This document shows, piece by piece, positions 432 to 59,782 of a stretch of 64,000 nt of DNA. A program made the translations under genes and the position numbers. This stretch comes from Xestospongia bergquistia. Lineage: Eukaryota > Porifera > Demospongiae > Haplosclerida > Petrosiidae. The stretch covers positions 5,344,775 through 5,408,774 of the forward strand of contig OZ014418.1 in the NCBI GenBank assembly GCA_963965975.1, written 5' to 3'. Below the pieces are notes generated by a model. The model was not told the origin of the DNA, did not search any database, and saw nothing but the letters and a program-made list of their open reading frames with translations. Numbering within the stretch: position 1 is the first letter of the stretch; the number at the start of each line of letters is the position of its first letter.

Positions 432-733
432 TTATCTAAAATCCTCTAGTGTAAAGTCAAAAATTAGACTTTCTCTTCTCATTAGAGTAACTGCTAGTGA
501 GCCTGGATGACTGCATTCAGAAGATGATGAAGCATCATTATTAGGCAATGTCATTTCACACTCACTGATATGCATTCTCTTTTCTCTTTATAACTTGATT
601 GGACTCTCAAACAGTGGAGTTAGTGTTAGTACTATAAGAACAAATAAAGCTACACCAGTAGATATGCCACTAGTAATAACTTGACTGTATTGTCCACTTG
701 TCATTATACTACTGAGAGTTACAAAACTGAATT
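432..733 (-). pseudogene. C-terminal remnant of beta-helix multi-TM protein
   Basis: The minus strand encodes the last ~100 residues of the family seen whole at 21393-25280: the block with TLSSIM, then STGVALFVL, then the cytoplasmic tail with SSSSECSHPGS and MRRESLIFDF, ending in TAA at 432-434. A tyrosine codon in the IKLYREKR segment of the intact copies is TAA here, so the tail is interrupted. Upstream of about 733 the homology stops and AT-rich sequence follows. An almost identical remnant lies at 15429-15729 in the second copy of the segmental duplication. It is probably inactive. Confidence 0.7.
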
Positions 734-1549: not shown

Positions 1550-2485
1550 ATGGCGCAGCATAATTTTGAGACAAAATTCGAAGAGGCTTTGTTCAAGAAA
1601 TATTCTCAATGTGCAAAATATCTCATTCCTAAAGAGGTGTACTACAAGACCATTGATGATCTGAAAACAGCAGCTGAAGCTTCCACTACCAAGTCACATC
1701 ATCAGTACTACATCCTAAAAAAGTATGAGTTACTTCAGTGTGGTGATGTAGAGAAGCTTATCAAGAAGAGAAAGTCACCAGAAGATCGCCCTGTCTACTA
1801 TGCCACCATAGAAGACACCTACGACATCATCAGTAAAGCTCACATTGCAACTGGCCATGGTGGTCGTGACAGGATGCTGAAACATCTTAGGCAAAAGTAT
1901 GCCAACATCACAACAGATGCTGTTGAACTATTCAAGTCCTACTGTGTTGTATGTCAAGAGAAGAGGAAACGTCCCAAGACTACTGGTGTTTTTGTCAAGC
2001 CTATTCTTTTCAGGGAATTCAACTCTAGTGGTCAAGTTGATCTTGTTGACATGCAGTCATCCCCACAAGGACAATTCAAGTGGATTATGGCAGGTGAAGC
2101 TGGAGATAATGTTGCTGTCCCCATTCCCATGGTTGACAGAGGGAGAGGTGACCCAAGAAATATCCTAGGAGTTATTGTTGATCGGGATGAACACGACATG
2201 TATAGAATTGCAGTGAAAGCTGGGATTCTGAGCAAAAAGTATTCCAGGAATCAGTTTGATCTCTGTCCTCAGTGACTCTTGAATGATTCTGATGTCAACA
2301 AAGAATCTACAATCACACTCTGTCAAGCTCTCAAGTCTACAGCTTCTGGCGGACAAGGGTTCTTCCGGTGTGACTGCAGCAAAGGCAAGAAACAGTGTCA
2401 GACAAACAGGTGCAAGTGTTATAAAGCAAAGAGACTTTGTAACTGTAGGTGTCACAGCAGTCTCAGTTGTCATAATAAGAATTGA
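1550..2485 (+). pseudogene. KRBA2-like integrase/transposase with core deleted and a stop before the Cys-rich tail
   Basis: From ATG 1550 the frame reads 241 codons to TGA 2273-2275, then stays open in the same frame to 2485. Residues about 93-140 form an integrase zinc-binding HHCC domain (HIATGH ... CVVCQEK). Just after the first core aspartate region (VDLVDMQ ... FKWIM, about 160-180) the protein jumps directly to the C-terminal integrase segment (VDRGRGDPRNILGV ... YSRNQFDLC), so the part of the catalytic core that should carry the second Asp and the Glu is missing. The part beyond the TGA is a cysteine cluster (CDCSKGKKQC ... CKCYKAKRLCNCRC), a zinc-binding tail seen in relatives of this family. 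The product cannot be a complete DDE enzyme. Confidence 0.8.
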
Positions 2486-4348: not shown

Positions 4349-5318
4349 TTATTTTAACTCTCCATATTCACTATTCTTCTTATGAGATAGAACAAGCAAA
4401 ACAGCTGAAAAGCCAATGAACCCAATAAGTAAGAGACACTCCACCCACGTACAAGCCTGTAATAATAAGAAAAAGTTGTTCAATTAGCTAGGTTAATTAC
4501 TACATTATGTTTAATAATATTATATTTAAAAAATCATTAAAAACCTTCTCCTAAGAAAAGCTAGGATTGTTACCATATAGCAAGGGTAGTCATTTATTTT
4601 ATTTCCGCTAAATATAGTATATACAGAATAGTGCAAATCAAACAATTCACTGATTTGCTTATGATATAAAATCACTAACCATTGAGGACTGAATAGTATG
4701 AAAGAAGTGGACTCCTCCTGGCATATTGTCTATATCAGAGCACCTGCACATTATTGACATTGAGTATAGTAAAATTACAATGTGTTGTTAACTTAACTTC
4801 TTAAATAAACCAGTTTCAATTAGTGTTTTGCATGTTTTACTCAGCCCTGATGATATAACTATAGCAACAACCAGAGACATCAAGACAGCCAAGATGATAA
4901 CAAAGATGACCAGAATATTAAAAACAGTAGCACTGAATTGCAAAATATGGCATGTTATTATAATGATATATTGTGTGTGTGTGTGTGTTGTACAATACCT
5001 TCTCTTAATTATCACTGCAAGAACAATAGTCACTAGTGCAGCAAGTATCAGAAAAGATACTGTAGCTTGTCCTCCAATAACAAACTGACAGATACTGTTG
5101 GAACTAAATCCTTGATCATCATTGAGAAAGAGAATGCAATAGTGATCAGAAAATGGGCTGTTTTCAGTGATTTTTTTGATATCATTGTTCTTATTTGCAA
5201 ACACACCAAGTGATACCAGAGCAAAGGTCAGAGCAGCAAGAAGTAGAAGAGATTTCACTATTAAGAGGATAATAGTGAATATGTTCCCACCTGGTAATGG
5301 ATTGTTTACAGTCCTCAT
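4349..5318 (-). CDS. TMEM179-like four-TM membrane protein, complete, four coding exons
   Basis: Exons on the minus strand: 5318-4999, 4932-4798, 4743-4680 and 4456-4349 (TAA 4349-4351), with GT-AG introns of 66, 54 and 223 bp and matching phases, giving 208 residues. TM1 follows the short N-terminus; an extracellular loop has paired cysteines (YCILF ... SICQF); TM2 and TM3 flank the first intron; the motif SGLSKTCKTL precedes a second loop starting KCSDID; TM4 is in the last exon (WVECLLLIGFIGF) before a short basic tail. Length, four-TM layout, the C-L-F / C-x-F loop cysteines and the TM3-W/S-x-x-C pattern agree with vertebrate TMEM179, a poorly characterised membrane protein; homology is my recognition, not a search. 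The first intron is 66 bp, a multiple of three, and free of in-frame stops, so retention would insert 22 residues. It lies 3' of the GABA-B-like exons. Confidence 0.7.
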
Positions 5319-5601
5319 TTCGCTAGTACTGGAAGATTTTGATATCGCTAAAACTGTTTTTATTAACACTGACTTTGATCCTGCAAATGTACAATTATAC
5401 TGTCTCAAAACAAATCTTTATTCAAGCCCAAAATGCCAAATACAAAATCAGGACTGAACTGGAATATTACACATACCTTATTCTGTTGAGCATGCTCAGT
5501 AATGATATACTAAATATAGAATATACATGACTAAATATAGAACACAAACTAAATATAGATCATACACAAGTTTTACAATTAAGGAGTGTATAGACTGGAC
5601 T

Positions 5602-7222: not shown

Positions 7223-9637
7223 TTAAAAATAATCAGTTCTGGGTGTTGGAAACAGATGAAATTCCATAGTGTCAATGGTATAATGTTGTGAAGGAGAGTT
7301 GACAGAAATCACCGAACGAGACTTGATGTGATCAACATGATGGCGAAGTATCCTCCCATTTTCTATCTGAATTGAATAAGACAATGGTCCAGTAGTGTTC
7401 ACATTTCTCCGGGTATCCATTTCTTGAGAATAAAGACCTTGACCATCACGAGTTGACCTTTTTGAAAAGTGTCGTTGCTTAACATGTTTATCATCATGAG
7501 TTTTCTGGTTGCTCTGTTTTGTGTTCACAACAGATTCCATGTTAGGTTTCAATAGATCAAAATGCATAAGAAGCTTCCGTTACAGAAATAATTGTCCAGG
7601 AGAAACGTTAGTAGTAGCATCAGGTGTTGATTGATATGCTAGCAAGAACTGTGACAATTGAGTACTGAGGTTTGGTTCATCTTGAGTACTAGTCTTCATG
7701 GCTCTCTTGAAAGTTTGGACAAACCTTTCTGCCAACCCGTTTGTAAAGGGGTGATATGGAGCACTACGAATATGCTTAATTCCATTAACTTTCCTAAACT
7801 CAGCAAATTCTTCAGAGGTGAACTGTGGTCCATTGTCTGATACTAGTTGTTCTGGAAGACCATACTTCGCAAAGAGATTCCTGAGTGCTTTAATAGTTTT
7901 GAAAGACGTTGTTGAAGGCATTTGAATTACTTCTGGCCATTTTGAGTGTGCATCCACCACTACCAGGAACATCTTATCCAGGAAAGGACCTCCAAAATTG
8001 ATGTGAATTCTTTTCCATGGTGTGGTAGGCCAGAACCATGGGTGTAAAGGTGCAGCTGCTGGTTGCGATTTATTCTCAAGGCAAGGAAGACATGACTTTG
8101 CTAAATTATCAATATCCTTGTCAATTGCTAACCACCACATGTAGCTTCTAGCTATGGCTTTCTTTCTAGTGACTCCTGGGTGGTTCTGGTGAAGTGTCTA
8201 TGGAATTTGATCTTGTAGTCTTTTTGGAATAATGACAAGAATACCTCATAGTTGGCACCCGCTTTCAATAGTAATTTCTTCTTGTTTTGATTGATATGGT
8301 TGAATGTTATCTGGCACTTGCTTTGGCCATCCCCTCCTGACATAATCAACAATCTTGCTAAGAATGGGGTCACGCCTGGTTGCAGTGTGAACTTGGTTAC
8401 AGGCGACTGGTAAAGCTTGAATTTGAAAGAGATTTAAGATGGTAACTGTCTTCATTTCACCAATTGCTTCTTGGTCATGTAGTGGAAGTCTTGACAGTCC
8501 ATCAGCATTGCTATGAGATTCTGTAGGCTTAAAACAAATATTGTAATCATAACCTGACAAAAGAAGTGCCCAGCGCTGTAAACGAGCAGCAGCTAAAGAA
8601 GGAATTCCTTTCTTTGAGGCAATAATTGCAGTGAGGGATGTGTTGTCGGTTATGAGGGTAAATTTTCTTTTGTAAAGATATTGGTGAAATTTACAAACTC
8701 CAAAAATCAAAGAGAGAGCTTCTTTTTCAAGCTGTGAATAGTTTTTCTCTGCAGTAGTTAGTGTGCGTGAGGCAAAGGAAATTGGTTTTTCTGTAGAGGC
8801 ATCAGCTGCAAGATTGATGGGTAGAGTGGGGTTGTAACGGGTCAATACATTGGCAGAAACTAGTTGTCTTTTGGCTTCTTTAAATGCCTTTGTACATTCA
8901 TCAGTTCAATTCCACTTTTGATTTGCACGAAGCAGACCATTGAGTGGGTGTAAAACACTTGAGAGATTTCGAATAAATTTTCCGTAGTAATTGGGTAAGC
9001 CAAGAAATTACCGAAGTTCTTGGACAATAGTAGGTGGTGAAGCATTGGTGATGGCTTCCACTTTGCTGGGTACTGCACAAATTCCTTCTTGATCGATTTG
9101 ATGTCCAAGATACTCGACAGAGGGTAAAAGGAAGTGACATTTGTCCTTCTTAAGTTTGAAATTGTGCTCTTCTAATCTGTTTAGCACAGCCGCTAAATGT
9201 CGAAGATGTTCTTCGTCATCTTTTCCTGTGACTAATATGTCATCAATATAACAAATGACTCCTGGCAGTCTGTGTAGGTTCTTACCCATGAACCTCTGAA
9301 AAATAGCTGGTGCTGATGCAATTCCAAATGGCAATCTGGTAAATTGGTATAGACTTTGGTATGTGTTTATTGTGACATACTTCATAGAATCTTACTCCAG
9401 TGCTAGTTGTAAGTAGGCTTGAGAAAGATCTAACTTTGTAAAATATTTTCCATTTGCTAATGTAGCAAACAAATCTTCAGGCTTGGGAAGTGGGTACTGG
9501 TCTACTGTGAGAGCTAGGTTTATCGTGACCTTGTAGTCTCCACATATTCGAAATCGACCATCCTTCTTGGGAACAGGGACAATTGGAGCAGCCCAATCAC
9601 CGCTATCCACCTTTTTCAAGATCCCTTGTTCTTCCAA
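7223..9637 (-). pseudogene. Gypsy pol remnant: reverse transcriptase, RNase H, integrase
   Basis: Order on the minus strand: RT (9637-9008) with LDLSQAYLQ and the catalytic YIDD; RNase H (about 8845-8450) with DAST, LEKEAL, TDNTSL and the GLSRL end motif; integrase (8140-7580) with a CLPCLE zinc half, SDNGPQF and LAERFVQTFK. In the integrase core the first catalytic aspartate position reads INFGGPF, i.e. Asn in place of Asp. In-frame stops include TAA 9392-9394, TAA 9008-9010 and a TGA near 8905; all blocks nevertheless remain in one frame. A further in-frame stop, TGA 9701-9703, lies just upstream of the RT. Confidence 0.9.
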
Positions 9638-9835: not shown

Positions 9836-10915
9836 TCAATGCCAATCAAGGCAAATGTGTTTCAGCCAGTTTCGTCCCATTGGAGTTGGACCATTACCAG
9901 GAACTACATAGAGTATGAACTGAGCAGGTTGTCCTTGATAACACACGTCAACATGCAACTGTCCTAGAACAGGCATAGGTTCGTTAGTGTACGTTTTCAA
10001 CACTAACTTGCATGTCTGTAACTTTATCTCAGGGAAGTATTTCTTTTTTGTTGCTTCCGAGATTGTAGATACTGTAGCTCCGGTGTCTACTTCCATGTTA
10101 AGAGGTTTTCGGGCATCCTGTAGTGTGACTTGAATTGGGGGACAGGGAGACACTGTCTCACTTAGTGTGTAAGCCCTGACTTCTTCTGAATCAGCATTAC
10201 CTTGAGACTGTTGATGTACCTGATGAGTACCGTTATACTTTTTCTTTGATTTCTTTGAATTTTCAGGAGAGTTGTACTTCCTCTGGGGATTAGAACGACA
10301 AGCTGGAGCTATGTGTCCCTTCTTTCCACAAGCATTGCAACTTGAATCCTTGAATCTGCTTTCTTCAGGGATGTGATTTGATTTTTCACATCTGTAGCAT
10401 AACTGTGGGCTGTTTTTGGGCTTGCCTGGAGTCCCTATAACATTCTTGATATGCTGTTTTTGTCCTTTCAGTCTTCTAGAACTGTGGTCAGCAGCTTCCA
10501 TCCCTTGGCCGAGTTCCATGGCCTTCGCCAGGGTAAGTTTAGGCTCGGATAACAACCTACATTGAATGGCTTCGCTACGAAGTCCACATATGAATCTGTC
10601 TTGAAGGGCTTCCTCCAGGTATGCTTCGAATTTGCAAGTAACTGCTAATTTTCTTAGAGCGGCATCATATTTAGCAATAGTTTCATCTGGCCTCTGATTC
10701 CATTTGTGGAATGTAAACCTTTCTGAAATAATTAGCTTTTTTGGTTCGAAGTGGTCTTTTAATAATTGAGCAATCGCACGCAGAGTTAATGTTTTTGGAT
10801 TCTCTGGAACTGCTAAGTCACATATCAGTGAGTATGTAATGGGTCCAATGGAACTGAGGAGAATAGGCACCCGTTTGAGATCTGCCACTTCTTTTGCTTC
10901 GAAGTAGAGTAGCAC
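9836..10915 (-). pseudogene. Gypsy gag-protease frame
   Basis: A 359-codon frame ending at TGA 9836-9838. The first ~150 residues are a retrotransposon Gag-type helical domain (RFTFHKWNQRPDET ... LQDRFICGLRS). Two zinc knuckles follow at about 178-212: the first is CYRC...H...S with the last cysteine lost, the second CNACGKKGHIAPAC is intact. The aspartic protease motif VDTGATVST lies at about 275 and a GRNWL-like element near the end. The frame is the same as that of the downstream RT, so this was one Gag-Pol polyprotein. A start upstream, within 10916-11028, is possible. Confidence 0.9.
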
Positions 10916-11559: not shown

Positions 11560-13412
11560 TACGTTATATAGTAATATAACATTAAAATTACATTAAAATT
11601 GTCTTAAAACTGCGTTAAAATTACATTAAAACTATGTTAAAATTGCTTTAATTTTTTATTGAAATTGTGTGAAAATTGTGTTAAAATTACGTTAAAATTG
11701 CACAAAAACTGTGTTAAGATTTCAGTAACGTTGTGTTAAAGTTGTATAAAGAATGCATTAAAATTGTGTTAAAATTGCATTAAAACTTTGTGAAAATTGC
11801 ATTAACATTATCTTAAAATTGTGCTAAAATTGCATTTTTAGTTAAAATTGTGTGAAAATTGTCTTAAAATTGTTTAAATTGTCTTTAAAATGCGTTCAAA
11901 TTGCATTAAAACTGTGTTAAGATTACGTTAACATTGTGTTAAAGTTGTATTAAAAATGGATGAAAATTGAGTTAAAATTGCATTAAAATTGTGTTAAATT
12001 GCATTAAAATTCTGTTAAAACTGTGTTAACATTTTGTTAACTTGCTTTAATTTTTCATTAAAATTGTGTTAAAGTCATCTTAAAATTGCATTAAAATTGC
12101 ATTAAAACTGTTAAGATTGCCTTAACATTGAGTTAACGTTGTATAAAGAATGCATTAAAATTACTTTAAAATTGTGTTAAAATTGCATTAAAATTGTGTT
12201 AAAACTGTGTTAACATTATGTTAAAATTGTGCTAAAATTGCATTAATTTTTAAAAAATTGTCTTAAACTTGCATTAAAATTGCATTAAAATTGCATTAAA
12301 ACTGTGTTAACATTGTGTTATAAAGAATGCATTAAAATTGTGTGAAAATTGTATTAAAATTGTATTAAAATTGTGTTAAAACTGCATTAACATTATGTTA
12401 AAAATGTGCTAAAATTGCATTAATTTTTAGTTAAAATTGTGTTAAAATTGTCTTAAAATTGTGCTAAATTGCATTAAAACTGTGTTAAGATTGTGTTAAC
12501 ATTGTGTTAACATTGTATAAAGAATGCATTAAAATTACATTAAAATCTTGTTAAAATTGCATTAGTTTTTTAAAATTGTCTTAAACTTTCCGTTAAAATT
12601 GCATTAAAACTGTGTAACATTGCATTAACATTGTGTTAAATTTGTATAAAGAATGCATTAAAGTTGTGTTTAAACCATGTTAATATTATGTTAAAATTGT
12701 GCTAAAATTGTATTAATTTTTAGTTAAAATTGTGTTAAAATTGTCTTAAAATTGCAGTAAATTGCATTAAAGCTATGTTATTTTTGTGGTAACATTCTGT
12801 TAACGTTGTATAAAGAATGGATTAAAATTGTGTTAAAATTGCATTAAAATTGTATTGAAATTGTGTTAAAACTGCGTTAACATTATGTTAAAATTGTGCT
12901 AAAATTGCATTTTGTTAAAATTGTGCTATAATTGTGTTAAAATTGCATTAAAACTGTTTTAAGATTGCGTTAACATTGTGTTAAAGTTGTAAAAAGAATG
13001 CATTAATATTGCCTTAAATTTTTAGGTAAATTGTGTTAAAATTGTTTTAAAATTGCGTTAAAATTGCATTAAAACTGTGTTAAGATTGCGTTAACATTGT
13101 GTTAAAGTTGTATAAAGAATGCATTAAAATTGTGTTAAAATTGCATTAAAATTGTACTAAAATTGTTAAAACTGCGTTTATGTTAATTGCATTAAAATTG
13201 TGTTAAAACTGCGTTAAAATTGTGTTAGAAATGCCTTAATTTTTTATTAAAATTGTGCTAAAATTGTTTTAAAATTGCATTAAAACTGTGTGAAAGTTGT
13301 ATAAAGAACGGATTAAAATTGCGTTAAAATTGCATTTAAATTATGTTAAAATTGTGTTAGAACTGTGTTGACATTGTGTTAAAATTGTGCTAAAATTTCA
13401 TTAATTTTTTGC
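11560..13412. repeat. Intronic AT-rich minisatellite, ~11-bp unit (TTAAAATTGYR)
   Basis: About 1.85 kb of variants of ATTGCATTAAA, ATTGTGTTAAA and ATTGTCTTAAA. A marker variant, TAAAGAATGCATTAAA, recurs at about 11743, 12141, 12320, 12514, 12643, 12807, 12988, 13109 and 13298, indicating irregular higher-order units of about 120-200 bp. The array begins about 30 bp upstream of the splice acceptor of GPCR exon A. A shorter array occupies the same place in copy 2 (18868-19560). Confidence 0.95.
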
Positions 13413-14219: not shown

Positions 14220-15013
14220 AGGCAGTATATATATATTTAAGCAAAGGAAACAATCATGTTTCATTTGGCTGTTCCATCATGTGCTATTATTAATGAAACT
14301 GAGCACGAACATGCAATCCATACTAGTACTGATTAATAATATTTAGACATTATACATTTCTTGTTGCGTTTATCACTACTGTTGTGACATTTGTATTGAC
14401 AGAAGATGTGACCAGCAAATATTTAAATTGTTTGCATTGAGTTGATCTTTTTTGATCTTTTGCACTAGCATATAGTATCATAACAATAGCTCCAGGACTA
14501 ACTCCTTGACATGTACTAACAGTCACAAGTACTAGTGACACTGTAAACGACTGCAAAATACATGCAAGGACACAAAGCAAATGGCGAAGATGAAACCGAT
14601 CTTTTTGTTTGCTATTCACAGAAAATGAATATGTTATTATCTATTATCAATCAATCTAGTTAGTTAGATAACATTTCATATTGATTATTTTTCTTAAAAA
14701 AGCAGAAGTTCAACAAGTGAAAAATAAAAACATAATTGTGTTAATTTTTCTGAACCTACCATGATGATTTTTATAATGTGATTGATTAAGTGAAATTATG
14801 ATCATTTAAAGTTAGTACAACTGTTAATAATGAGAATCATAAAGTCAGTCATCTTGTTAACAATGTGTATCCACATTCCATCATTCCTAGTCATGAGGCA
14901 TAATTAGTATCTTACAACTCTGGAAGCCTACATCAAACACACTTGACTACTTTTATGATCTGTATATACCTACCTATATAGCAGCTACACATCCCAATTG
15001 GACAGACATTTCC
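14220..15013. repeat. Duplicated segment, paralogous to about 59785-60600
   Basis: Both segments begin with CAGGCAGTATATAT and continue collinearly through a beta-helix stalk remnant, an ATAAAGTCAGTC tract and the TCTGGAAGCC block. The copy at 59.8 kb abuts a truncated LINE; here the left border is unrelated AT-rich sequence. Confidence 0.75.
14340..14640 (-). pseudogene. Beta-helix family stalk fragment
   Basis: The minus strand reads a diverged version of the stalk of the 21393-25280 protein: FTVSLV ... CQGVSPGAIV ... STQCKQFKYL ... NTNVTTVVINATRN. Only this ~90-residue block remains; the helix and membrane regions are missing on either side. Probably a remnant of a former full-length copy. 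Confidence 0.75.
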
Positions 15014-15401: not shown

Positions 15402-15428
15402 TAATTCTACATTACATTAGCATAATTA

Positions 15429-15729
15429 TTATCTAAAATCCTCTGGTGTAAAGTCCAAAATTAGACTTTCTCTTCTCATTAGAGTAAGCCTGGATGACTG
15501 CACTCAGAAGATGATGAAGCATCATTATTAGGCAATGTCATTTCACACTCATTGACATACATTCTCTTTTCTCTATATAACTTGATTAGACTAGACTCTC
15601 AAATAGTGGAGTTAGTGTTAGTACTATAAGAACAAATAAAGCTACACCAGTAGATATGCCACTAGTAATAACTTGACTGTATTGTCCATTTGTCATTATA
15701 CTACTGAGAGTTACAAAACTGAATTTTCA
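15429..15729 (-). pseudogene. C-terminal remnant of beta-helix multi-TM protein, second copy
   Basis: Near-identical to 432-733, ending in TAA at 15429. Small deletions relative to the intact paralogues (for instance about 10 bp in the codons before ECSHPGS) shift the frame. Confidence 0.7.
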
Positions 15730-18867: not shown

Positions 18868-19560
18868 TGTAACATTAAAATTGTCTTAAAATAGCGTTAA
18901 AATAACATTAAAACTGTGTAAAAATTGTCTTAAAATTGTATTAAAATTGTCTTAAAACTATGTTAACATTGTGTTAAAATTGCATTAATTTTTTATTAAA
19001 ACCCTTAAAATTACGTTAAAATTGCATTAAAACTGTGTTAAAATTGCATTAATATTGTGTTAAGGGTGTATAAAGAATGCATTAAAATTGCATTAAAACT
19101 GTGTTAAAACTGTGTTAACATTGTGTTAAAGTTGTATTAAGAATAGATTAAAATTGTGTTAAAATTGTATTAAATGTGTGTTAAAATTGCATTAAAATTG
19201 TGTTAACATTGTGTTAAAATTGCCTTAATTTTTTATAAAAATTGTGTTAACATTGTCTTATAATTGGATTATAATTGTCTTGAAATTGCATTAAAAGTGT
19301 GTTAAAATTTCATTACAATTACAATGAAATTGTGGTAAAACTGTGTTAACATTGTGTTAAAATTGTGCTAAAATTGCATCAATTTCTATTGAAATTGTGT
19401 TAAAATTGTTTTAATATTACGTTAAAATTACATTAAAAGTGTGTAAAAATTGCATTAAAATTGTGTTAAAATTGCATTAATTTTTTATTAAAATTGTCCT
19501 AAAATTGTGTTAAAATTGCATTTAAAATAGTATTAAAATTGTGTTAAAATTGCATTAACA
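18868..19560. repeat. Intronic minisatellite, shorter array
   Basis: About 690 bp of the same ~11-bp family as 11560-13412, again immediately 5' of GPCR exon A. Its far end runs directly into the truncated beta-helix frame at about 19566. Confidence 0.95.
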
Positions 19561-19565
19561 TGAAC

Positions 19566-20750
19566 TGAAAAAGACACATTGACAAAAATAAATTTGTTTT
19601 CCTGAATACTTTTAAAGTTGTTTATCATCATCCCACCACCATCAGTACACATTAGTGAACTATTACTAGTACTATAAGTATATCCATTATTAGATAATAT
19701 AACATTTTCAAATAAGATAGTACAGTCATTAACTTGATATAGGAAAAGATATGCTCCTCCACCCATTCCTGCAAAGTTGCTGTCCATAATGCTATCAGTA
19801 ATGCTCAGTTGTGTAGTAGGAAGACATGTGAGTTGACTGAGCATTAGGGACAGCCCCCCACCACTGGAATGGTGTGATAATATATGAAGAGATTTTCCTT
19901 TTAATGTAATAACTCGTTTTAAATGAATTGTGTTAATGTAACTGCTAAAGATAGCAATGAAAATGTTTCCTTCGTATCCATTGAGTGACATACCCTCTTC
20001 AACTGTAATATCCTGAAGTTGTAAATGCACAAACGAAGAATTTAATATAGAGATAGACAGGCTACCCTTACTCCCAATACTAGTTGTAATATTGGTATTT
20101 TTGATCATGTATTGTACATCATTTTGAAATGCTACTATCTTCAAATTACCATTATAAGTTTCTGTTGGATCATGTCCATTCCTTGAAAAGCTACAAGTGT
20201 GTATTAGTAGTATGTTGCTTGTGTCAATTGACATACCAAGACCAGTATTATTTTGAACTGATACCATTATCACAGACAGGTAATAAACATTTAAAAAATG
20301 TAACAACGAATTCTTAGTTCCTGTACAGTTTGTAAAAGTGATACCAACTATTGCAGTTTGTATTGACATTGCAAAATTAAATCCTCCAACTTTACCATTG
20401 CAGGTAATGATAACAGTAGATTGCATTACATTCTTTGTGTTCCCTTCAACCCATTGTCCTTGACCTTTCAATGTTAAGTTATTTGCATACACAATACTGA
20501 CCTTTCTGTCCAAAAGATGACTGCCTTCCATGAAAATAAATGTAGCATTAGAGACAAAGTAAGTATCAGTTTGTGAAGTATAGTAAGATAGAGTGTGACA
20601 AGTATTATCAGCCAAGGCATCAGGAGGACAAGAGGTGTTGGTAGATCCATGAGGTTTCACATAGTAGATACGATGAGACTCCAATAATACTGGTAATAAT
20701 AGAAAGACTGTTAACACAGCTACCGGTGAAGAAGACGCTACAGCATCCAT
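19566..20750 (-). pseudogene. Beta-helix protein N-terminal fragment, cut by minisatellite
   Basis: From ATG 20750, about 395 codons nearly identical to the N-terminus of the 21393-25280 protein: signal peptide, RIYYVKPHGSTNTSC, many N-glycosylation sequons and beta-helix-type short hydrophobic strands (GGAYLFL, LSITDS). After NVSFS the homology ends and the frame runs into minisatellite, stopping at 19533. The helix C-terminus, stalk and membrane region are absent. The next recognisable exons downstream on the same strand are the GABA-B-like ones of copy 2, so a chimeric transcript is conceivable. Confidence 0.85.
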
Positions 20751-21392: not shown

Positions 21393-24300
21393 TTAATTAA
21401 TGGATTTAAAATCTTCTGGTATAAAATCAAAAATTAGACTTTCTCGTCTCATTAGAATAACTGCTGGTGAGCCTGGATGACTGCATTCAGAAGATGATGA
21501 AGCATCATTACCAAGCAGTGGCATTTCACATTCATCAACATGCTTTCTCTTTTCTCTATATAACTTGATTTTACTTTCAAACAGTGGACTTAGTGTTAGT
21601 AATATAAGAACAAATAAAGCTACACCAGTAGATATGCCACTAATAATAACTTGACTGTATTGTCCATTTGTCATTATACTACTGAGAGTTATAAAACCAA
21701 TGTTGAGATATGACAAGATTTCAATTGTATTCAGTTCTCTTGTTTTATACATACCCCCAACTATCCAAGCTAAACTTGCTAATAATAAAACAATTCCAAG
21801 AACGATGATGTTGTTGACTTGACAGTTCATACTAGATGTATAAGAGAAGAGACCTGTTAATACAAGACGTACTATCAGTAAGAGTCCTGTCTAGAACCGA
21901 CAACTATCCTTATAAGGACCACAATATGCATCAATCAAAGGTTTCAGTCTAAACACTGGATCTCTACTAGCTTTATGACAGCATATATAACTGTAACGTT
22001 GAAGCCACTGAGAGGAAAATACCAGTAATGTATAGACAATCCCAATAAAGAGAAGAATGCTAGAGAATATTAGTAAAGGAAGACGTGGATTACTTGAGTA
22101 GTCTAATGTTGCATCCACACTCCAAATGAACCACCTATTGTTATTACAAGAGAGTGTTGTAAACATAAAGACATTGGTTATGTTACGTAATAATTTGGTA
22201 TAAGACATGAGGAACAATGTTGCCAGTACTGGTACAGCATTTCTACCACACACACGTGATAGCCTTAGAGAATAGTGACAGCTAATAATAACAACCAGTG
22301 CCAATAGCCACAAATACAATGGAAATGCAAACTGCAGCCATGTTTTCCAATAACCATCTAATCCATTGTAGAAACAAGTCTCGATACCAAGGTCTAAGTT
22401 GAGCCAAGAAATAAACTGTCTCAGCACTGGAACACCTCCATTTGGAAAGAAGGCTGTCTCATTGAGTTTGACAATGTTAGCGTAGAAGAGGAGACCATTG
22501 ATTCTTCCTGAAGACACTGTAAGATTAACTGTAATTAGTAAAGCAATTAGAACAATACCAGCTACTGTAAATGGAAGTAAAAGTGCCAAATAGCTGTTAG
22601 TACAGTCAGTACATTTGTTAGAGCCCAACATGAGACTAAGTCCTGACTTACACTGTCCACAAAGTGTACCTCCTCTGTTGAATGCACATTGAGGATTAGG
22701 TGATGTGATGTTAAAAGAGACAAGGGATGGATTACAGTAATCAAATGGACAGTTAGTATGAGCAACAGTACAATTGTAATCTTTAAAGTGAGCTATCCAA
22801 TTATTGCCAGATCTGGTGAATGGACTCTTAAAATCAGTTATGTTACATTTGATGTCATTGTCGGGTATAATTTGTTTAATGAAATCATTACATACACACT
22901 GTCCAGTGTTAGAAGATAGTTGAAAACCTGTAGGGCAAGGTAAGAAACTTATAATTACTATCATTTCAGCATTAGACAATCTGATATTTCTAGCTGCATT
23001 TATCACTACTGTGGCATTTGTATTGATGGAAGAGTTCCGACTAGCAAAATATTTAAATTGTTTGCATTGAGTTGATGTTCTTTGATTTTTAGTAGTAGTA
23101 TTAAGATTACTACCAAATGCTGTCACAACAATAGCTCCAGGACTAACTCCTTGACAAGTACCAACAGTCACAAGTGACACTGTAAATGGCTGCCCAGGAT
23201 AGATTTCTCTGTACAAAGTTCGTACAAAGCAGTTGATACTGCCTTTAATGCAAGGACATACAGCAAATGGTGAAGACGAAATTGACCTTTCTGTTGACAA
23301 TGACCAGTACCTTGTAAGAGGACAACTTAATTCATCTTCTATTGTTGATTTGACAGTTTGGAACCTTATTGGTATTGTACTGCAGTGTCGATAAATTCCT
23401 CCATAAATGTCATATCCTGCCATTGCTTTGTTCAGCTCAAAACTCACTAGTGGATACCTTGTTTGGTTCAGTTTAAAGTTGAAGTTTTCATTAGTAATGA
23501 ATGTACATTTGCGATAGTCACTGAACAGTCCATTAATGAATGATAGGTCAAAGACATCCAAGTCTATTTTTTTAACATAAATGGCTCCTCCATATAAGCC
23601 AGCACTATTGTTAATAAATGAAACATGGCTGCCTTCATTGACTTGAAAATAGTTTTTTGTCAATATAACTAGTCCTCCTCTAATATATGGTGAACTATTA
23701 TTAATGAAGGCATTATTCTTTCCATTAAATATAACATTACAACCACGAATGACCATGCCACTAAGGTTGAAGTTATCTCTGACTACTATATCTGTAATAT
23801 TCACTGTAAACTCAACTTTGGCAACAAAAACCATTGCCGCAAAGACTAATAGCAATTTTCCTTTGTATGAAAATGGTTCATGAAGGTATATTTCTATTGT
23901 ATTGGTAGAAAGTCTTGTATTCTTTCTGAAGATTACATTTGTTAGTTGAACCTGTGGTGGGCATTTATCAGAGTCTGATTTTGGATAAAATAAAAGTCCT
24001 GCTCCAACAAAACCAGAGTTTTCATCAAAAGTAGTATTAATTATGTTTAAACTCTCTCTGCATACAAACACATTGAATAGCCCACCTCCATCGACTGCTT
24101 GATTATGGGAAAAAGACACATTGACAAAAATAAATTTGTTTTCCTGAATACTTTTAAATGTGTTTATCATCATACCACCACCACCAGTACACATTAGCGA
24201 ACTATTACCAGTACCATAAGTATATCCATTGTTAGAAAATATAACATTTTCAAATAAGATGGTACAGTTGTTAACTTGATTTAGGAAAAGATATGCTCCT

Positions 24301-25280
24301 CCACCCATTCCTGCAAAGTTGCTATCAATAATGCTATCAGTAATGCTCAGTTGTGTAGTAGGAATACATGTAAGTTGACTGAGTGCTAAGAACAGCCCCC
24401 CACCAGTGGAGTGCTGTGATGATGCATAAAGAGATTTTCCTTTTAAGGTAATAACTCGTGTTAAATGAACTGTATTAATGTAACTGCTAAAGATAGCAAT
24501 GAAAATGTTTCCTCCGTATCCATTGAGTGACATACCCTCTTCAACTGTAATATCCTGAAGTTGTAAATGCACAAACGAAGAATTTAATATAGAGATAGAC
24601 AGGCTACCCTTACTCCCAATACCAGTTGTAATATTGGTATTTTTGATCATGTAATGTACATCATTTTGAAATGCTACTATCTTCAAATTACCATTATAAG
24701 ACTCTGTTGGATCTTGTCCATTCCTTGAATAGCTACAAGTGTCTATTAGTAGTATGTTGCTTGTGTCAATTGACATACCAAGACCAGTATTATTTTGAAC
24801 TGATACCATTATCACAGACAGGTAATAAACATTTAAAAAATGTAACAACGAATTCTTAGTTCCTGTACAGTTTGTAAAAGTGATACCAACTATTGCAGTT
24901 TGTGTTGACATGCTAAAATTAAACCCTCCAACTTTACCATTGCAGGTAATGATAACAGTAGATTGCATTACATTCTTTGTGTTCCCTTCAACCCATTGTC
25001 CTTGACCTTTCAATGTTAAGTTATTTGCATACACAATACTGACCTTTCTGTCCAAAAGATGATTGCCTTCCATGAAAATAAATGTAGCATTAGAGACAAA
25101 GTAAGTATCAGTTTGTGAAGTATAGTAAGATAGAGTGTGGCAAGTATTATCACCCAAAGCATCAACAGGACAAGAGGTGTTGGTAGATCCATGAGGTTTC
25201 ACATAGTAGATACGATGAGACTCCAATAATACTGGTAATAATAGAAAGACTGTTAAAAAATTTAAGATAGCAGATGCCAT
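21393..25280 (-). CDS. Beta-helix, Cys-rich, multi-TM surface protein (one in-frame TAG)
   Basis: A single-exon frame of 1296 codons with one internal stop, TAG 21891-21893, where the paralogue at 62.3 kb has TGG. Residues 1-21 are a signal peptide; about 22-660 are repeated short strands with Asn/Thr sequons and GGG/NN turns typical of right-handed beta-helix (pectate-lyase/POMP-like) folds; about 665-780 a stalk with GTCQGVSPG; about 782-894 a Cys-rich part (CPTGFQ, CVCND, GTLCGQCKSG, CTDC). Four membrane segments lie before the stop (about 897-920, 984-1001, 1015-1035, 1067-1088) and three or four after it, then a cytoplasmic tail with acidic and SSSSECSHPGS motifs. DAYCGPYKDxCRFW before TM5 looks like a conserved intracellular signature. 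A receptor or adhesion role at the cell surface is inference. The TAG would remove TM5 onward unless read through; it may be a pseudogene, a null allele or a sequencing error. Confidence 0.85.
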
Positions 25281-27820: not shown

Positions 27821-29987
27821 TTGGAAGCTGTACTACTATCCCCTTCTCAGTACCATCCAAATAATAGAGGTTCTCACAATAGGAGATTCAATCCACAGAC
27901 AGCAGCCAGACTACAAAAATTGTATCGCTGCAATAAAAAGAAGTGCATCCGTAGCATCTTGGAGGACAATTCTCCAAAATGTGAAATTCCTCTCAAAGAT
28001 CTAGAAGAATACTTCTCAGCAAAGCCCCCTCAGTCTCCCTCTGAGAACGCACCTCTTCAACAACAACAAACTCTCTTACACGCTGATGACCTCACATACC
28101 CCATTGAAATGGACGAAATTGAGCAGCAACTAAGGAGACTCCCCTCAAACTCAAGTCCTGGCTCAGATGGGGTCCCATATGAAACATGGAAAAAAGTAGA
28201 AGGGAGCAAGATCACCCTGGAGCAGATTTTCACAACTTGTCTATTCAACAAAAGAATCCCTCAAAGCTGGGAAAAGAGCTCAACCATTCTTATATACAAA
28301 AAAAGGTGACAGGAACGAGCCCAGCAATTGGAGACCTATCTCCCTACAGTCCAAACTCAAACTCATCTCATAATATAAGAAACAAGGAAGGCCTCTTGGA
28401 CGACATTCCTGTCTACAGAGAAATAAAGCAAGGCTGCCCCTTGAGTCCCCTGTTATTCAACCTAGTACTAGAAAGTATTATTCCTCAGGTTGAAAATAGC
28501 GAAGGGGGTTATCAATTCAATAATGGCAGTCGCGTAAAAATTCTAGTCTATGCCAACGGCATCTGCCTGACTGGCCAGGAGAAGGATGACATTCAAAGAT
28601 CTTTGGATATGTTGATGAAATTTACGATCTGGGCTGGGCTAACTGTTTTGAAGTGTGGGTCTCTGTCACTCATAAATAAAAAGGGCAGGAAGTATGTAGA
28701 ACCTTACCAACCCCGTTTAGGCCAAGCCCTAATCCCTCCACTGAAATGGAGCGACAGTTATAAATATCTAGGAATAAGAATCAGTAGGGAGAGACTCCGT
28801 ACACAAAAAGACTTAGAAGACAAGATTGTGAGAAATGTCGAAAAAATTATGGATTTGGCTCTTACGGACTGGCAAAAAATCGAAGCTGTTAACGTATTTG
28901 TCTTCTCAGGACTAGAATATTACCTAAACACCTCCATTCCAAATCGCTTGTGGCTGATAAGACTCGACGCAACTATAAGGAGGATTGTTAAGAAGGCACT
29001 AAAACTCCTAAAAAGAACTTCAACAGCTTTTTTTCACATATCAAGAAAAGATGGGGGTTTAGGTCTTATTTCACAAGAGGACAGACTAAACATTATTCTA
29101 CTAAAGAGGGCCCTGATCATCCTATCAAGTCAAGATAGGTGGATACAAGATATTGCTTGGGCCCAGTTGACCTCCACCCTGACTTGTAGAGAAAAAGTAA
29201 AGAGAACCTGACCTCAATGGACATAGAAAGTTTCTTAAACACCCCAGCCAGACCTGAGGAAGCCTACACAAGAAGAGATGTAAGAAGTCTATGGAGCTTG
29301 GTTAGGAAGTCCCTATGGCGCCTAAAGTGTTCTGTACAACTACATGAGGCAGAGGTATATTTGACCAAGGATGAAAAACAAATCCATAGCAAACAACAAG
29401 GTCCATTGACAAATGTCTTGGTAGAGACAACCCATCAATCCAGACTCTCCCAGTTGCTACAAGCTAAAGACCAAGGCCGTGCTTACCATCATATTAGCAA
29501 ATCTCCAGTCAGTAGCGACTGGATTCAGGATGGGAAGTATTTGTCTTTCGCGGAATACAGGTTCACCATCAGAGCCCGTCTCAACATCTTACCAACCAAG
29601 ACAGTGGCAAGAAGGGCGGGGAAGTCTCAATTGGACACCAAATATCGAAGATGTAAACTCCAACAAGAAACTCTGGGACATATACTAAATGCCTGTACAC
29701 CAAATACTAGCCTAATGAGGGAAAGACACAACAAGATCTTGGAGAGACTGGTAAAAGCCGTCCCCGCTGATCTAGGGGACAAGTTCAAGGAACAAAAGCC
29801 GCTGCAATTTCCGGGTGACCTCAGACCGGATCTAGTAGTCCGTAATAGAAACTCTGGTGAAGTCACTATAGTAGATGTGACAATCCCTTTTGAGAGTGAT
29901 AAGGACGCCTTTGATAAAGCTAGGAATGAGAAAGCTCAAAAATATTCTCCCCTAAGTGACCTGGTACCAAGATCAGGAGCACATTAA
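27821..29987 (+). pseudogene. LINE ORF (RT plus restriction-like endonuclease), broken
   Basis: Three open blocks separated by a frameshift (about 28305-28370) and a stop at 29209-29211, directly followed by the endonuclease frame. Compared with the copy at 31765-33030, the block VWFDLKDAFG is absent. Expected complete length of the family is about 1000 residues or more; about 700 remain. Confidence 0.8.
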
Positions 29988-31764: not shown

Positions 31765-33030
31765 TTGTCAAGCTCAAAAGCATCACCCCCTGACACAATC
31801 ACGGGGGACTCCCTTTATCACAACCAAAATTCCTCCTCTAAAGATGACGTTAATCGGGTCAACCAAGTTCTAACCCACTTTTCAAACTTGCTCGACAGTT
31901 ATGTGGGAAGGAATCTAACCAACGAGGAATGGATATTGGTTGCTAAGTTCACGGATGATTGGATAAAGGAGTTGGGGGCATTAAAAGGATCAGGTCAAAG
32001 GTCACCTACTCACAAGACAATTCACTGGAAAAAGAGAGCCAAACATCGCTCTTCTACCCAGAAGTCATCTGGTGATATTGATTGTGTGCCAACAGTGAAA
32101 GCAACCTTACATCCCTCCAAACCAAGAAGTCATCATCGACCCAACAAAAAACAACAAGCCTGTGACATACAGAAATTTAACAGATCAAACAGGAAGAAGT
32201 GTGTAAGATCTATTTTAGGTACTTCTTCTCAATATTGTAATATTGAGACAGCGAAACTGGAGGACCACTTCAACAGCTCTTGTCCCCTTCATAACCTTCT
32301 TAGTGTGCTGGAATGGATCCCCTCTAGAAGCCCTCAGGCTGATGAGCACCTAGATGAGTTAAGTTATCCTATCTCAAAACAGGAGTTGCTAGCGTGCTGG
32401 TGCATTGACAATGAGGTAATATCTCCTAAGCAGAAAGGTTTTCTACCTTACGAAGGGTGTTTTGAACACTCTTTTCTGATGCAAGCAGCTCTCAAGGACA
32501 GTAAAAGAAGATGTAAGGACCTAAGGATAGTATGGTTTGACCTAAAGGATGCATTTGGTTCTATTTCTCATTATTTGTTACTAGATATGTTAAGAAGGTT
32601 GAATATACCATCAGATTTTATTGATGTATGTGACGATATTTACACAGGGTCATCATATAGAGTCAAATCTTCAAAGGGGTTGACAAACCCAATTCTTCTA
32701 ATCAGAGGCATTAAACAGGGTTGCCCTTTGAGCCCTCTGTTGCTCAACCTTGTCGTTCAGGGACTACTGGCAGGTCTTGATACTGTGGATGGGGGTTACA
32801 TGTTCAATAGCCATCTACGCCTGAACTTTTTAGCTTATGCTGATGATCTCTGTATATTAGGGAATTCAGAGGAGGAAATTCAAAAGATGATCTGTGAAAT
32901 CGAAAAGTTTTGTAAGTGGGCTCAGTTGGTGTTTAATGTTGACAAATGTGCTGCTTTATTCATCTTCAACAGCAGACCCAAGAAATTTGTCAAGACCTTC
33001 TCCCCTTTGGTACAATTACTAATCAATTAA
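31765..33030 (+). pseudogene. R2/NeSL-type LINE, N-terminal region and RT with intact YADD
   Basis: A 421-codon frame. Residues about 1-130 are a poorly conserved basic N-terminal region; NRSNRKKCVRSIL at about 140 matches the other LINE copies. After LSYPISKQELLA the frame skips the expected RT 0-2 region and resumes at KQKGFLPYEGCFEHS, so an internal deletion kept the frame. RT motifs then follow: VWFDLKDAFGS, GIKQGCPLSPLL and FLAYADDLCIL with both aspartates present. The frame stops at 33030 before the thumb and endonuclease. It is truncated and not autonomous. Confidence 0.85.
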
Positions 33031-46718: not shown

Positions 46719-48116
46719 CTGTAAACTACTAATATTAGCGTGCAACCAATTTTGGCGATATTAGTGATTTAAAAAAATTGCTAAATTTAATATTCGCTAA
46801 AGTTAAGAGCGAGTCACGTGCGTTGAAAAAGAAGAAGCATGCAAACTGAACAGCAAAAGTCATGTCTCTTATAAGATGGCTTCATGGGTCATCATTGTCA
46901 GAACTAATGAGGATCATCAGGTATCATCATTATGATGATGAAACACGTGTTAAAATTGCCAAGTACTTGTGTGAATGTGGAAATAAGGCAGCTGCTGACA
47001 AATTCACTAAGGAGCTTGGATTTTTGGTTACCGAGAAAGATCCTGAGAGAATACGCAGTCTTCCTCATGGATCTAGAGGGAGACCATTGATGCTTGGGCA
47101 GAATCATTCCTTCGTAGAAATGGGTATGTGAAGAGCAAGGCCACCAAGGCTGCCCACAAGTTGCCTGATGATTTTCCAGAAGTAAAGCAGGCATTCCTTC
47201 AGAGAGTCAAGAGTGAAGTTGAAACATGGAACATTCAACGTGTCCTCATAATCAACTGGGACCAAACTGGATCCAAGTTAGTTCCAGTAAGTGAATGGAC
47301 CATGGAAAGGGAAGGCACAAAACAAGTTGCTATCATAGGACAGGAAGATAAAAGGGAAGTTACTGTTCTTATGTCTGTAACTGCTTCTGGTATTCTACTT
47401 CCTTTTCAAGTCATCTATCTGGGAAAGACAATTGGGTGCTATGCTAAAGTCACATTTCATAACAATTGGAAAATTACTCAGAGTGACAGTCACTGGAGCA
47501 CTGAGTCAACCATGTTGGAGTTTATCGACAAAGTAATTGTACCTTATGTTACACAGACAAGAGAAAAGCTCCAGCTTGTTTCAGATCAGCCAGCTCTTGC
47601 TTTATTTGACGTTTTCAAGGCACATCGCTGTGAGTCTGTCCTGGAAAAGCTACGTCAACATCATATCCATCAAGTGTTCATACCAGCAGGATGTACAGGG
47701 GAGCTACAACCCCTCGATCTTACCGTTAATTTGTTGTTCAAAGCATCTATGAAAGCTCACTTTTCCCGTTGGTATTCTACTGAAGTCAAAGAAGCTTTAG
47801 AGCAAGGACAAGAAATAGCTAATGTGAAGGTTGACCTTTGAGCTTCAATTGTGAAACCTCTGCATGGTAACTGGCTAATGATGTCATTCTCATTTGTCAA
47901 AGAAAAAAAGATATCATAGAAAAAGGATTTGAAAAAAGTGGAATTTTGAGTTCCATTGCAATTACCAGTACTTGATATACTCATAAAATGCAATTTTGAT
48001 ACTATTGATACTAGTACTAGTAATTGTTTTTAACAACGTTAAATTTAATAGCCGCTAATATGGTAATGAAGCAAAAATGCTAAAAAAAGTAGCCGCCAAC
48101 ATTAGTAGTTTTACAG
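46719..48116 (+). mobile_element. pogo-like DNA transposon with TA target duplication
   Basis: TIRs CTGTAAACTACTAATATTAG (left) and CTGTAAAACTACTAATGTTG (right, reverse-complemented) are flanked by TA at 46717-46718 and 48117-48118. Subterminal TTAATATTCGC / TTAATAGCCGC elements add a second inverted pair. Total 1398 bp, shorter than an autonomous pogo because the transposase is internally deleted. Confidence 0.85.
46862..47841 (+). pseudogene. pogo-like DDD transposase with internal deletion and frameshift
   Basis: The first block (46862 to about 47090) carries the N-terminal DNA-binding region (KIAKYLCECGNKAAADKFTK) and RGRPLMLG. The reading frame then changes near 47090; the second block (through 47841) holds the catalytic core: first Asp in INWDQTG, second in LFDVFKAH, third in QPLDLTVN, with GVK-like EGTKQV and CYAKV between. 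The DNA-binding linker normally present after RGRPL is missing. All three catalytic aspartates are preserved, but the frameshift and deletion make it inactive. Confidence 0.85.
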
Positions 48117-56159: not shown

Positions 56160-57056
56160 TTGTCTTCTGATGGTGTTGTTTCTGATGATCAACTATGTCA
56201 AACTGTTTCAAATAAACAGAGAGTGAAGGATAAACTAGCTAATAAGAATTCTAAGCCTTCAAATCCATCCTCATCTGTTCATTGTGTCTGTTCCTCATCA
56301 GAAGACTCTCGTCACATGGTTGAGTGTGAGGCTTGTTCTCAATGGTCTCACAGCAAATGTGTTGGCATCACTCCTTCTCTGGCTCCAACTTATCCTTATG
56401 TCTGCCCATTTTGTATAAAATCTGTCTTCTCTCAGATTGAAGAAATTAGGACTGAAGTCTCTGATCTTCAGTGCCAACTTTCTTCCCTTGAGTTGTCCAT
56501 TAACTGTGATGTCTCTCCTTCTGTTCAGTCTGAAATTCAGCGCATTAATGATTCTCTTTCTGAAATCTCAGTTAAACTCAGTTCTAATATTTCCAAGTCT
56601 ACTCAGCCTCCCACTTTGCAAGTTCCACTGATCCCAACCAATCCTACCTCAGCCAACAAGTCGATTAAGCCTGTTGATGTAGACAGAAATCTCAACATTG
56701 TAATATATAGAGTAAAGGAATGCCCGAAAGGGACTTCCAAATTCAACAGGGCTGTGGTTGATCTTAAAAGTGTCACCTCCATCATTTCCAAACTAGACAG
56801 TTCCTTTAACGAATACTCAATTAGAGACTCTCTCCAGCTTCGAAGATATCAAGAGAAAGCCGAACGTCCACGTCCACTCCTGGTAAAATTCAACAGAGCT
56901 GCAGACATCTCCAAGGTCCTTTCTAAAAGAAACAGACTGGACAAATCTTTCATTATCAAGCCAGATCTGTCACCTAAAGGAACGCTGGTCATTAATCCAG
57001 TCAGGGCACAGCAAAAGCGAAGTAAAAATCCGAGGCTCTTGCATTTTCATCAATAA
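56160..57056 (+). CDS. LINE ORF1 with PHD finger, coiled coil and RRM-like region
   Basis: 298 codons, intact. Residues about 42-85 form a C4HC3 PHD finger (CVCSSSEDSRHMVECEAC, WSHSKCVGI, YVCPFC). Residues about 90-150 are a heptad-rich coiled coil; about 175-285 resemble the esterase-free ORF1 RNA-binding domain of CR1/L2 elements (NIVIYRVKECPKG, LQLRRYQ, RPRPLLVKF). ORF1 proteins bind element RNA; PHD fingers usually bind histone H3 tails, so chromatin targeting is possible but inferred. A stop separates it from a short open extension (57061-57270). Confidence 0.8.
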   Translation: MSSDGVVSDDQLCQTVSNKQRVKDKLANKNSKPSNPSSSVHCVCSSSEDSRHMVECEACSQWSHSKCVGITPSLAPTYPYVCPFCIKSVFSQIEEIRTEVSDLQCQLSSLELSINCDVSPSVQSEIQRINDSLSEISVKLSSNISKSTQPPTLQVPLIPTNPTSANKSIKPVDVDRNLNIVIYRVKECPKGTSKFNRAVVDLKSVTSIISKLDSSFNEYSIRDSLQLRRYQEKAERPRPLLVKFNRAADISKVLSKRNRLDKSFIIKPDLSPKGTLVINPVRAQQKRSKNPRLLHFHQ

Positions 57057-57270: not shown

Positions 57271-59782
57271 CTAACTGACAATCTCAAAATTTGTCTCTGG
57301 AATTCACGTAGCCTAGTAAACAAACTTCTCCAATTCCAATCATTTGTCTACTCATCCCCTTTTGATATCTATGCCATCACTGAAACCTGGCTGTCAAGTT
57401 ACATATATGACAATGAAATTCTGCCCAACAACTTTATTCTTTATAGTAAAGACAGGAATACCAGGGGTGGTGGGGTTCTTCTGGCTGTACATCACAATAT
57501 TCAATGTATTCTTCTTTCCTCTCACTCAAACTTAGAAGTCATTACTGTTGAAATCAAAAATATCCTTCCTCTACCTTTTATCCTCTGTGTTGTTTACTCC
57601 TCACCCAACTCTAGTCAAGTCTACTTCTAGAACTTATTATCTTATCTGTCTACTCTCTCATCTGCAAATTATCACATTATCATTACAGGAGATTTCAATT
57701 GCCCAGACACAGACTGGGATACACTGTCTAGCTCCTCCTCCACATCTACCATGATTTGCGATTTTGCATTTGATCTCAATCTGGAGCAACTGGTGTCAGC
57801 CCCTACACATATCAAAGGGAATATTCTTAACATATTTTTGACTAATTGTGACAATTATATCAACAACCTCATTATTCATCCTCACCAAGGACTAAGTATT
57901 TAATCTGATCATTTTATACTATAATTTTCTATTGCCAAATCAAGACTTAGTCCTAACCTGATATCTCCCCGATATGTATATGACTATTCCAAAGCTGATT
58001 GGGATGGTCTTTCTTCTTATCTTCTTGATTATGATTTTGATTCCATTTTTCATCTCAATGATGTTGAAACCTGTTGGATGTCTCTCAAACAATCACTTTT
58101 AACTGCTATGAGTTTGTCTGTTCCTAAGGTCAAACTCCGGGCACACCAATGCCCCAAGTGGTTTACTGCAAGCATCCAAAATCATTTGAATAAAGTTCAC
58201 TCACTTCGTAAGAAAGCTAGATCTACTCCTTCCCCTCAAAATTTATCTAATCTAGCCTCATCTGAATCTCTCCTTCAAGCTGATATAGCTGAGGCAAAAT
58301 TAAACTATGAATCGCACCTTGTGTCTACATTTGCTGCAAACAAAAACTACAAAATTTTTAACTACATGCGTTGTCTAACCACACATAACTCCCTGCCAGC
58401 TACTATTGTTCAGACTCCTCACAAGCAAGTTCTGATGTGGAAAAGCCCAATTTATTTAATCAATACTTTCACTCTGTTTTTACCAGAAGCAACTACTCTT
58501 TACCCTCCCTGCAAGATTTTCCAGAAAATGGTGTCTCTATTAGTGAGATTATTTTCTCAGAGAGTGATGTATATGAAGTCTTTGCTGCCCTCAACCCTAA
58601 CAAAGCTATGGGTATTGATGGTATTGGCCCTAGTGTTCTTAAGTACTGTGCTCTTTCACTATGTGGTCCTATTCATCGCCTCTTCTCTCTCTGTGTTCAT
58701 CTTCACTCTATCCCTGCTGAATGGCGTCTACACTGCATCATCCCTATTTTTAAATCAGGGGACAAATCTCTAGTCCATAACTATAGACTTGTCTCTCTTT
58801 TGTGCTCCATCTCTAAAGTCCTGGAGAGACTAATCTATAGTAATATTATCGATCATGTCTCCTCCTCTATTTCCGATGTTCAGTTTGGTTTTCTCCAGCA
58901 TCGTTCCACTATTCACCAGTTACTTCTATTCTTGAGTACGATTTTCAACTCCTTTGACCAGAGATGCCAAACGGACTGTATCTATTTTGACCTACGAAAG
59001 GCTTTTGATACAGTTCCTCATAATGAGCTTTTATTCAAACTCTGGTCCATCGGCATTACAGGTAGCCTCTGGGAACTTTTTCGATCATACCTGTTGTCTC
59101 GCTCTCAGTGTGTCTTAACAACAGCCTTTCTGACAAACTTCCTGTTATCTCTGGAGTTCCTCAGGGCAGCATCTTAGGCCCCATCCTATTCATCATTTAC
59201 ATCAATGACTTGCTGTCTACTGTCTCCTCTTCAATTATTCTTATGTTTGCTGATGACACAAAATGTTACAGACCTATCAGTTGCCCAAACGACTCCTTGA
59301 TTCTTCAGCGAGACCTCAACTCCATCTCAGAGTGGTGTGTGGCATGGAATTTGTCCTTTAACTCCACTAAATGTGCAGCTCTACACTTCTCTCATTCTTC
59401 ACCTTCTTCCTCTTCTACCTATTATTTGAATGGTGATTCAATTTCTGACATGGTATGTCACTGTGATCTAGGTGTTATAATATCCAGGGATCTGTCCTGG
59501 AGTAACCACTATGACTATATTTCTGCCAAAGCATATAAGACCCTTGGCCTCATCCGCCATTCATTCCATCATATCAGCTCTATCTCTACCAAAGGACTCT
59601 TTACATCTCTATTATTAGACCACAGATTCTCTATGGCTCTCAAATCTGGCATCCCCATCTGATAAAGGACATTACCAAAATTGAGAATATTCAAGGGCGT
59701 GCTTCTAAATTTATCTTAAATGACTTCCTCTCCGACTACAAGTCTTGCCTCACTTCTCTTCACATACTGCCTCTCATGCTCA
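57271..59782 (+). pseudogene. LINE ORF2 (APE endonuclease and reverse transcriptase), frameshifted
   Basis: Endonuclease: WNSRSLVNK, AITETWLSS, GGGVLLAVHH, ITGDFNCPDTDW (57290-57720) and SDHFIL (about 57910), all key APE motifs visible. Linker frame 58078-58440. RT: GIDGIGPSVLKY, FGFLQHRST, YFDLRKAFDTV, SGVPQGSILGP and MFADDTKC with both active-site aspartates. Frame changes at about 58440 and 59130 and stops at about 57630 and 57900 inactivate it. Confidence 0.85.

Follow-up and report, generated by a model that had tools for sequence, protein, structure and literature searches.

The closest described counterparts of the proteins considered here are of three kinds. Adhesion and other GPCRs, sponge and choanoflagellate families included, combine a large ectodomain with a multi-pass membrane domain and a cytoplasmic tail and form large animal families (PMC12716839, PMC4302439). 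The sea-urchin Sp185/333 genes are clustered, similar copies marked by segmental duplications and genomic instability (PMC5103432, PMC1988830). The Pmps of Chlamydia, which are bacterial autotransporters, carry the POMP repeat (PF02415, TIGR01376), and PMC11166332 describes such repeats as forming the coils of a beta-helix.

The locus described here resembles the first in its layout, the second in its clustered copies and the third in a short repeat match within the ectodomain. The window, a 64-kb stretch of the sponge Xestospongia bergquistia at C8:5344775-5408774 (genome of 146.5 Mb in 21 contigs), contains two minus-strand frames, w1 and w2, which encode a signal peptide, a beta-helix-like ectodomain, a Cys-rich stalk, a multi-pass transmembrane (TM) domain and a conserved tail (Table 1). 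Judged from their sequences, both are probably either copies that lost their function recently or segregating null alleles; the multi-pass family to which they belong is very large, mostly intact and apparently single-exon.

Table 1. Features of the window, numbered from its first letter
Feature	Position	Strand	Remarks
w1, full-length family gene	21393..25280	-	ATG 25278-25280; terminal stop 21393-21395
w1 putative signal peptide, about first 23 codons	25212..25280	-	hydrophobic N-terminus; cleavage site by eye
w1 ectodomain	22686..25211	-	POMP/Chlam_PMP-type repeats; 23 N-glycosylation sequons; Cys-rich end
w1 LCGQC stalk, multi-TM domain and tail	21393..22685	-	RRESLIFDF-like conserved end
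w1 internal stop, TAG	21891..21893	-	sole interruption of frame; codon 1130 of about 1,296
w2, cut by window end	61800..64000	-	full copy C8:5406577-5410455
w2 internal stop, TAA	62049..62051	-	
Truncated family copy	19533..20750	-	405-codon open frame; signal peptide and first part of ectodomain; end overlaps 11-bp satellite 18874-19558
C-terminal-end fragment	15423..15719	-	C8:5360197-5360493
Late-ectodomain fragment	14353..14608	-	about 60% identical
Short ectodomain fragment	60042..60152	-	in-frame stop
C-terminal-end fragment	434..728	-	in-frame stop; C8:5345208-5345502
Degenerate 11-bp satellite (TTAAAATTGTG-like), two arrays	11582..13397; 18874..19558		second array overlaps end of truncated copy
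Retroelement/DNA-transposon pieces	7583..8140	-	domains listed in next row
Retroelement/DNA-transposon pieces	1550..2272; 28186..29208; 31765..33027; 47128..47838; 58437..59174	+	domains over both rows: integrase core, integrase zinc-binding, three reverse transcriptase pieces, DDE_1
Frame without Pfam match	9839..10915	-	gag-like by eye
Open frame with PHD finger	56160..57053	+	upstream of reverse transcriptase frame; perhaps first ORF of the same non-LTR element
206-codon frame	4788..5408	-	several hydrophobic segments; by eye unrelated to the family

Copies and stops in the C8 cluster

Both frames are real and, as a first-pass annotation of this DNA had stated, open except for one stop each. 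The 1,129-codon open frame of w1 is far beyond chance, and its TAG falls within the stalk, TM and tail part at an otherwise invariant Trp, which is identical in all eight other members of our nine-member alignment. The TAA of w2 removes the tail together with the last TM segment, as assigned by inspection. Both lesions are single transitions and not homopolymer indels. In an alignment of the 3′ part of 16 C8 sequences the sister codons are those previously given (TGG and CAA); 11 of the 12 sequences covering the first site have a sense codon and one has TAG, and at the second site 14 of 15 have a sense codon and one has TAA. Each stop is private to one copy and is not a property of the family. 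The earlier suggestion that the lesions may be recent holds.

Further copies were found by tblastn over 200 kb around the window. An intact copy, i1 (C8:5411111-5414998), starts about 2.3 kb past the window end, and an intact mosaic copy, i2 (C8:5415356-5419144; 68% identical to w1), about 6.6 kb past it. A near-full copy at 5313 kb (C8:5313178-5317064) is disrupted by two stops and one frame break; it matches w1 together with shared flanks over 8,087 bp at 98.0%. The other C8 copies in this region have several stops or frame breaks each, and many fragments accompany them.

Comparison of i1 with i2 gave a mismatch of 4.5% over the first 312 columns, 43.5% over the next 2,126 and 2.0% over the last 1,426, with breakpoints near i1 codons 124 and 828. 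The corresponding dS is 1.30 for the ectodomain and 0.02 for the TM part; the former value covers 783 codons, with i2 read from an internal Met, and includes some saturated windows. Such a pattern is what one would expect from gene conversion or ectopic recombination. This pair is the one in which a mosaic was seen; window scans of two other pairs (L029/L043 and L032/L033) revealed no sharp break.

Family size and domain architecture

A 21-base degenerate pattern for the GLxFYAN motif of the membrane domain gave 195 raw exact matches genome-wide (89 + 106) and 0 in the reversed control. Using the last 213 codons of i1 as a protein query, we obtained 150 scored matches among 440 candidates genome-wide, with 65 on C1 and 44 on C11 (about 0.13-2.2 Mb). 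Of the 132 scored matches outside C8, 99 sit in frames 1,000 or more codons long whose matched part is free of stops (median 1,219 codons) and 10 contain a stop within the match, whereas on C8 only 2 of 18 lie in stop-free frames of this length and 12 contain a stop. This difference in the share of intact frames has a Fisher p of 2e-7, the counts being per match and not per copy, with two C8 copies split over two rows. Because it has so few long stop-free frames in comparison with the rest of the genome, the C8 cluster is a decaying outlier. By the same numbers, the rule of exactly one stop in each long copy does not hold for the family at large, nor does it fit the two stops and frame break of the 5313-kb copy; since intact copies and a two-stop copy adjoin the window, we regard that pattern as a small-sample effect.

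The long open frames also uphold the single-exon coding that had been proposed, and the 150 matches to the 3′ part confirm that it is coding; the family as a whole is apparently single-exon in its coding part. An alternative code with TAG and TAA as sense codons was rejected, as the 99 matches in long stop-free frames end at ordinary stops. Among bacterial and archaeal genomes there were 46 pattern matches and among viral contigs 24, none of which was confirmed as a relative.

Some side observations concern other loci of this genome. Cathepsin-like (Peptidase_C1) genes are clustered in tandem at C9:1502757-1523415; they match piecewise and probably contain introns. The cathepsin-like gene in L042, considered as a possible silicatein and hence sponge marker, apparently retains a catalytic Cys. 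Wnt domains, which mark the genome as that of an animal, occur at three loci and in none of 14 control genomes, a weak control, as those identified are prokaryotes.

Besides w1, whose stop was read through, the nine-member alignment (1,552 columns) comprises i1, i2 and six relatives, of which C1 has two and C3, C4, C5 and C13 have one each. Each member has 17-29 N-glycosylation sequons and 23-35 Cys ahead of a Cys-rich LCGQCxxGLS stalk, which is followed by the TM segments and by a tail ending in RRE(S/P)LIF(D/E)F in seven members and in a looser form in the other two. The TM parts are more alike than the ectodomains in all 21 pairs of seven members (w1 and i2 left aside), with means of 48% and 32%. 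Of the 7-8 TM segments originally proposed, family-averaged hydropathy recovers six clearly and one as borderline, and two more are seen by eye; with an extracellular N-terminus and a cytoplasmic C-terminus, the count would be 7 or 9.

The domain layout in the first-pass annotation agrees with matches to sequence profiles. Beta_helix (PF13229) matches three of the nine members, w1 not among them, with a best E of 5.2e-16; POMP_repeat (TIGR01376) and Chlam_PMP each match eight of nine at E ≤ 1, w1 being above the cut-off for the former (25.2 vs 15 bits) and below it for the latter. The beta-helix-like ectodomain is thus supported at the level of profiles, and the single-sequence AlphaFold models, with unusably low mean pLDDT values of 44.8 and 39.8, are too poor to add to this. 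A Foldseek search of the PDB with the 39.8 model gave no match at E ≤ 0.001. Weak matches to aldolase structures (best E 0.016) were taken as chance.

For the membrane domain, as far as its sequence can be matched, none of the curated Pfam or NCBIfam models searched scores at or above its cut-off. No GPCR, GPS or TRP family model of Pfam matched any of the nine members at E ≤ 1, none of their NCBIfam matches is a receptor, and a TM-domain profile found no solved structure in the PDB, GPCR or TRP channel included, at E ≤ 5. These searches concur with the earlier statement that the protein attaches to no characterised receptor. Weaker matches were DUF3915, below its cut-off, to the last TM segments of three of nine members (best E 0.0036); DUF7630, likewise below its cut-off, in or near the TM part of four of nine (best E 0.008; at the stalk in w2); and, in one member each, DUF3823_C (E 0.0004), LapA_dom and DUF2069.

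Drift, selection and the meaning of the stops

Three-point branch lengths from synonymous distances are 18.5 synonymous changes for w1, 7.5 for w2 and 7.5 for i1. With 0.11-0.15 nonsense changes per synonymous change without constraint (transition bias 4 to 2) the neutral expectation is about 0.8-2.8 stops per copy, and 1, 1 and 0 are observed; a rate of 0.19, near the no-bias value of 0.20, raises the expectation to 3.5, 1.4 and 1.4, respectively. A single stop per copy therefore does not exceed what neutral drift would produce.

Synonymous divergence among the four nearly full-length, almost identical copies (w1, w2, i1 and the 5313-kb copy) is about 1-5%, and their dN/dS is 0.38-0.61 for the ectodomain and 0.29-0.57 for the TM part. 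For w1 vs w2 the ratio runs from 0.29 (TM) to 0.61 (ectodomain), and therefore most of their history was under constraint, which counts against a reading of decay. Downstream of the first stop site the six pairs among these copies have 3 to 17 changes each and ratios of 0.59 to 4.45, four of them exceeding 1; w1 and i1 differ there by only 1 synonymous and 2 nonsynonymous changes. The values above 1 are as relaxed constraint would give, on few changes. Intact pairs from elsewhere in the genome have dN/dS over the same region of 0.41 (L029/L043, p 0.16), 0.40 (L032/L033, p 4e-6) and 0.19 (L030/L031, p 6e-11; dS 2.6, near saturation), and on this basis the region is constrained in the family, while nothing indicates that the constraint persists in w1 or w2. 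The dN/dS check that the first-pass annotation had suggested for the sequence 3′ of the stops thus returns purifying selection in two of three intact pairs and too few changes among copies of the w1/w2 type. That annotation had also taken conservation downstream of the stops as an argument for tolerance or readthrough; this is not supported, because with such low synonymous divergence and with signs of gene conversion in the cluster near-identity 3′ of a stop is uninformative on function.

Together the private stops, the intact neighbours, the intact family elsewhere and a stop count within neutral drift make pseudogenes or null alleles the most likely identity of w1 and w2, each of which has a disabling lesion of its own alongside intact paralogues that are under purifying selection. 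Their products, if transcribed, would keep the ectodomain but not the last TM segments or the conserved tail, on account of which they would most likely be signalling-dead.

That the stops are common null alleles which segregate, perhaps through balancing selection, rather than fixed pseudogenes is an explanation we consider rather unlikely; it is favoured by lesions that are young, single and private and by the intact copies adjoining them, and segregating nulls are found in certain families of chemosensory and recognition genes. It is a good deal less probable that near-identical copies were collapsed and that the stops are errors of assembly or base calling. Copies 98% identical over 8 kb are prone to mis-polishing, but other copies and fragments of the cluster have lesions of their own, 12 of the 18 C8 matches containing a stop, and the changes in w1 and w2 are simple transitions, not homopolymer indels. 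It is very improbable that the truncated products are functional decoys which display the ectodomain without the tail: the w1 ectodomain is intact, the 405-codon fragment keeps a signal peptide and part of the ectodomain, and single-exon mRNAs are without the exon junctions that trigger decay, but the two truncations end at different points in the TM part and each is found in one copy only. Translation through the stops or RNA editing, with the full protein being made, is scarcely credible, for although the downstream frame is open in both copies and the TAG sits at a Trp invariant in eight other aligned members, into whose codon A-to-I editing could in principle turn it, the sense codon at the second site is beyond such editing, neither stop is common to any other aligned copy, the bases that follow (ACA at the first site, GTT at the second) form no readthrough context that we know of, and the downstream identity is explained by recency and conversion.

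A putative recognition family and its nearest counterparts

With pseudogenes or null alleles as the preferred reading, the stops have the look of ordinary gene decay and the family itself is the finding worth following. It would evolve by birth and death, through segmental and tandem duplication, gene conversion, by which copies can stay similar in their start and membrane domain, and a steady pseudogenisation that would be strongest in the retroelement-rich C8 cluster. The beta-helix ectodomain may bind an extracellular ligand, possibly the glycans of microbes, of food or of other sponge cells, and the TM domain and tail, which are conserved, may pass a signal inward or anchor the receptor. 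Architecture, size and turnover together suggest a putative role as recognition receptors.

In a broader form, which we put forward tentatively, the family would serve sponges as a recognition system: about 150-200 or more single-exon receptors would sense microbes or self and non-self, conversion would hold the start and the membrane module constant as the beta-helix ectodomains diverge, and the copies with stops would be by-products and possible conversion donors. If this is true, a constant-variable architecture is made here without introns or somatic rearrangement. Such a family would matter because animals of early-branching lineages require receptors that recognise symbionts and self; its size, its unmatched membrane domain, its apparently intron-free coding and at least one constant/variable pair made by conversion make it a good, testable candidate. 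The family looks little studied: no description was found among the matches listed from the literature, which comprised open-licence papers only and is thus weak evidence of absence. Similar unnamed proteins are presumably present in the sponge Amphimedon.

Against the systems named at the outset the family differs in distinct ways. The Pmps are autotransporters, and the family instead has a helical multi-TM domain after its ectodomain; the short POMP repeat match is, as a sequence likeness, no demonstration of common descent. From the large-ectodomain GPCRs it is set apart by the failure of any GPCR or GPS model to match its nine members at E ≤ 1, by a TM count that may be 7 or 9 and by a short tail, without a kinase, at the end of the frames read. 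The Sp185/333 proteins are unrelated to it and are secreted, whereas the members of the sponge family are multi-pass.
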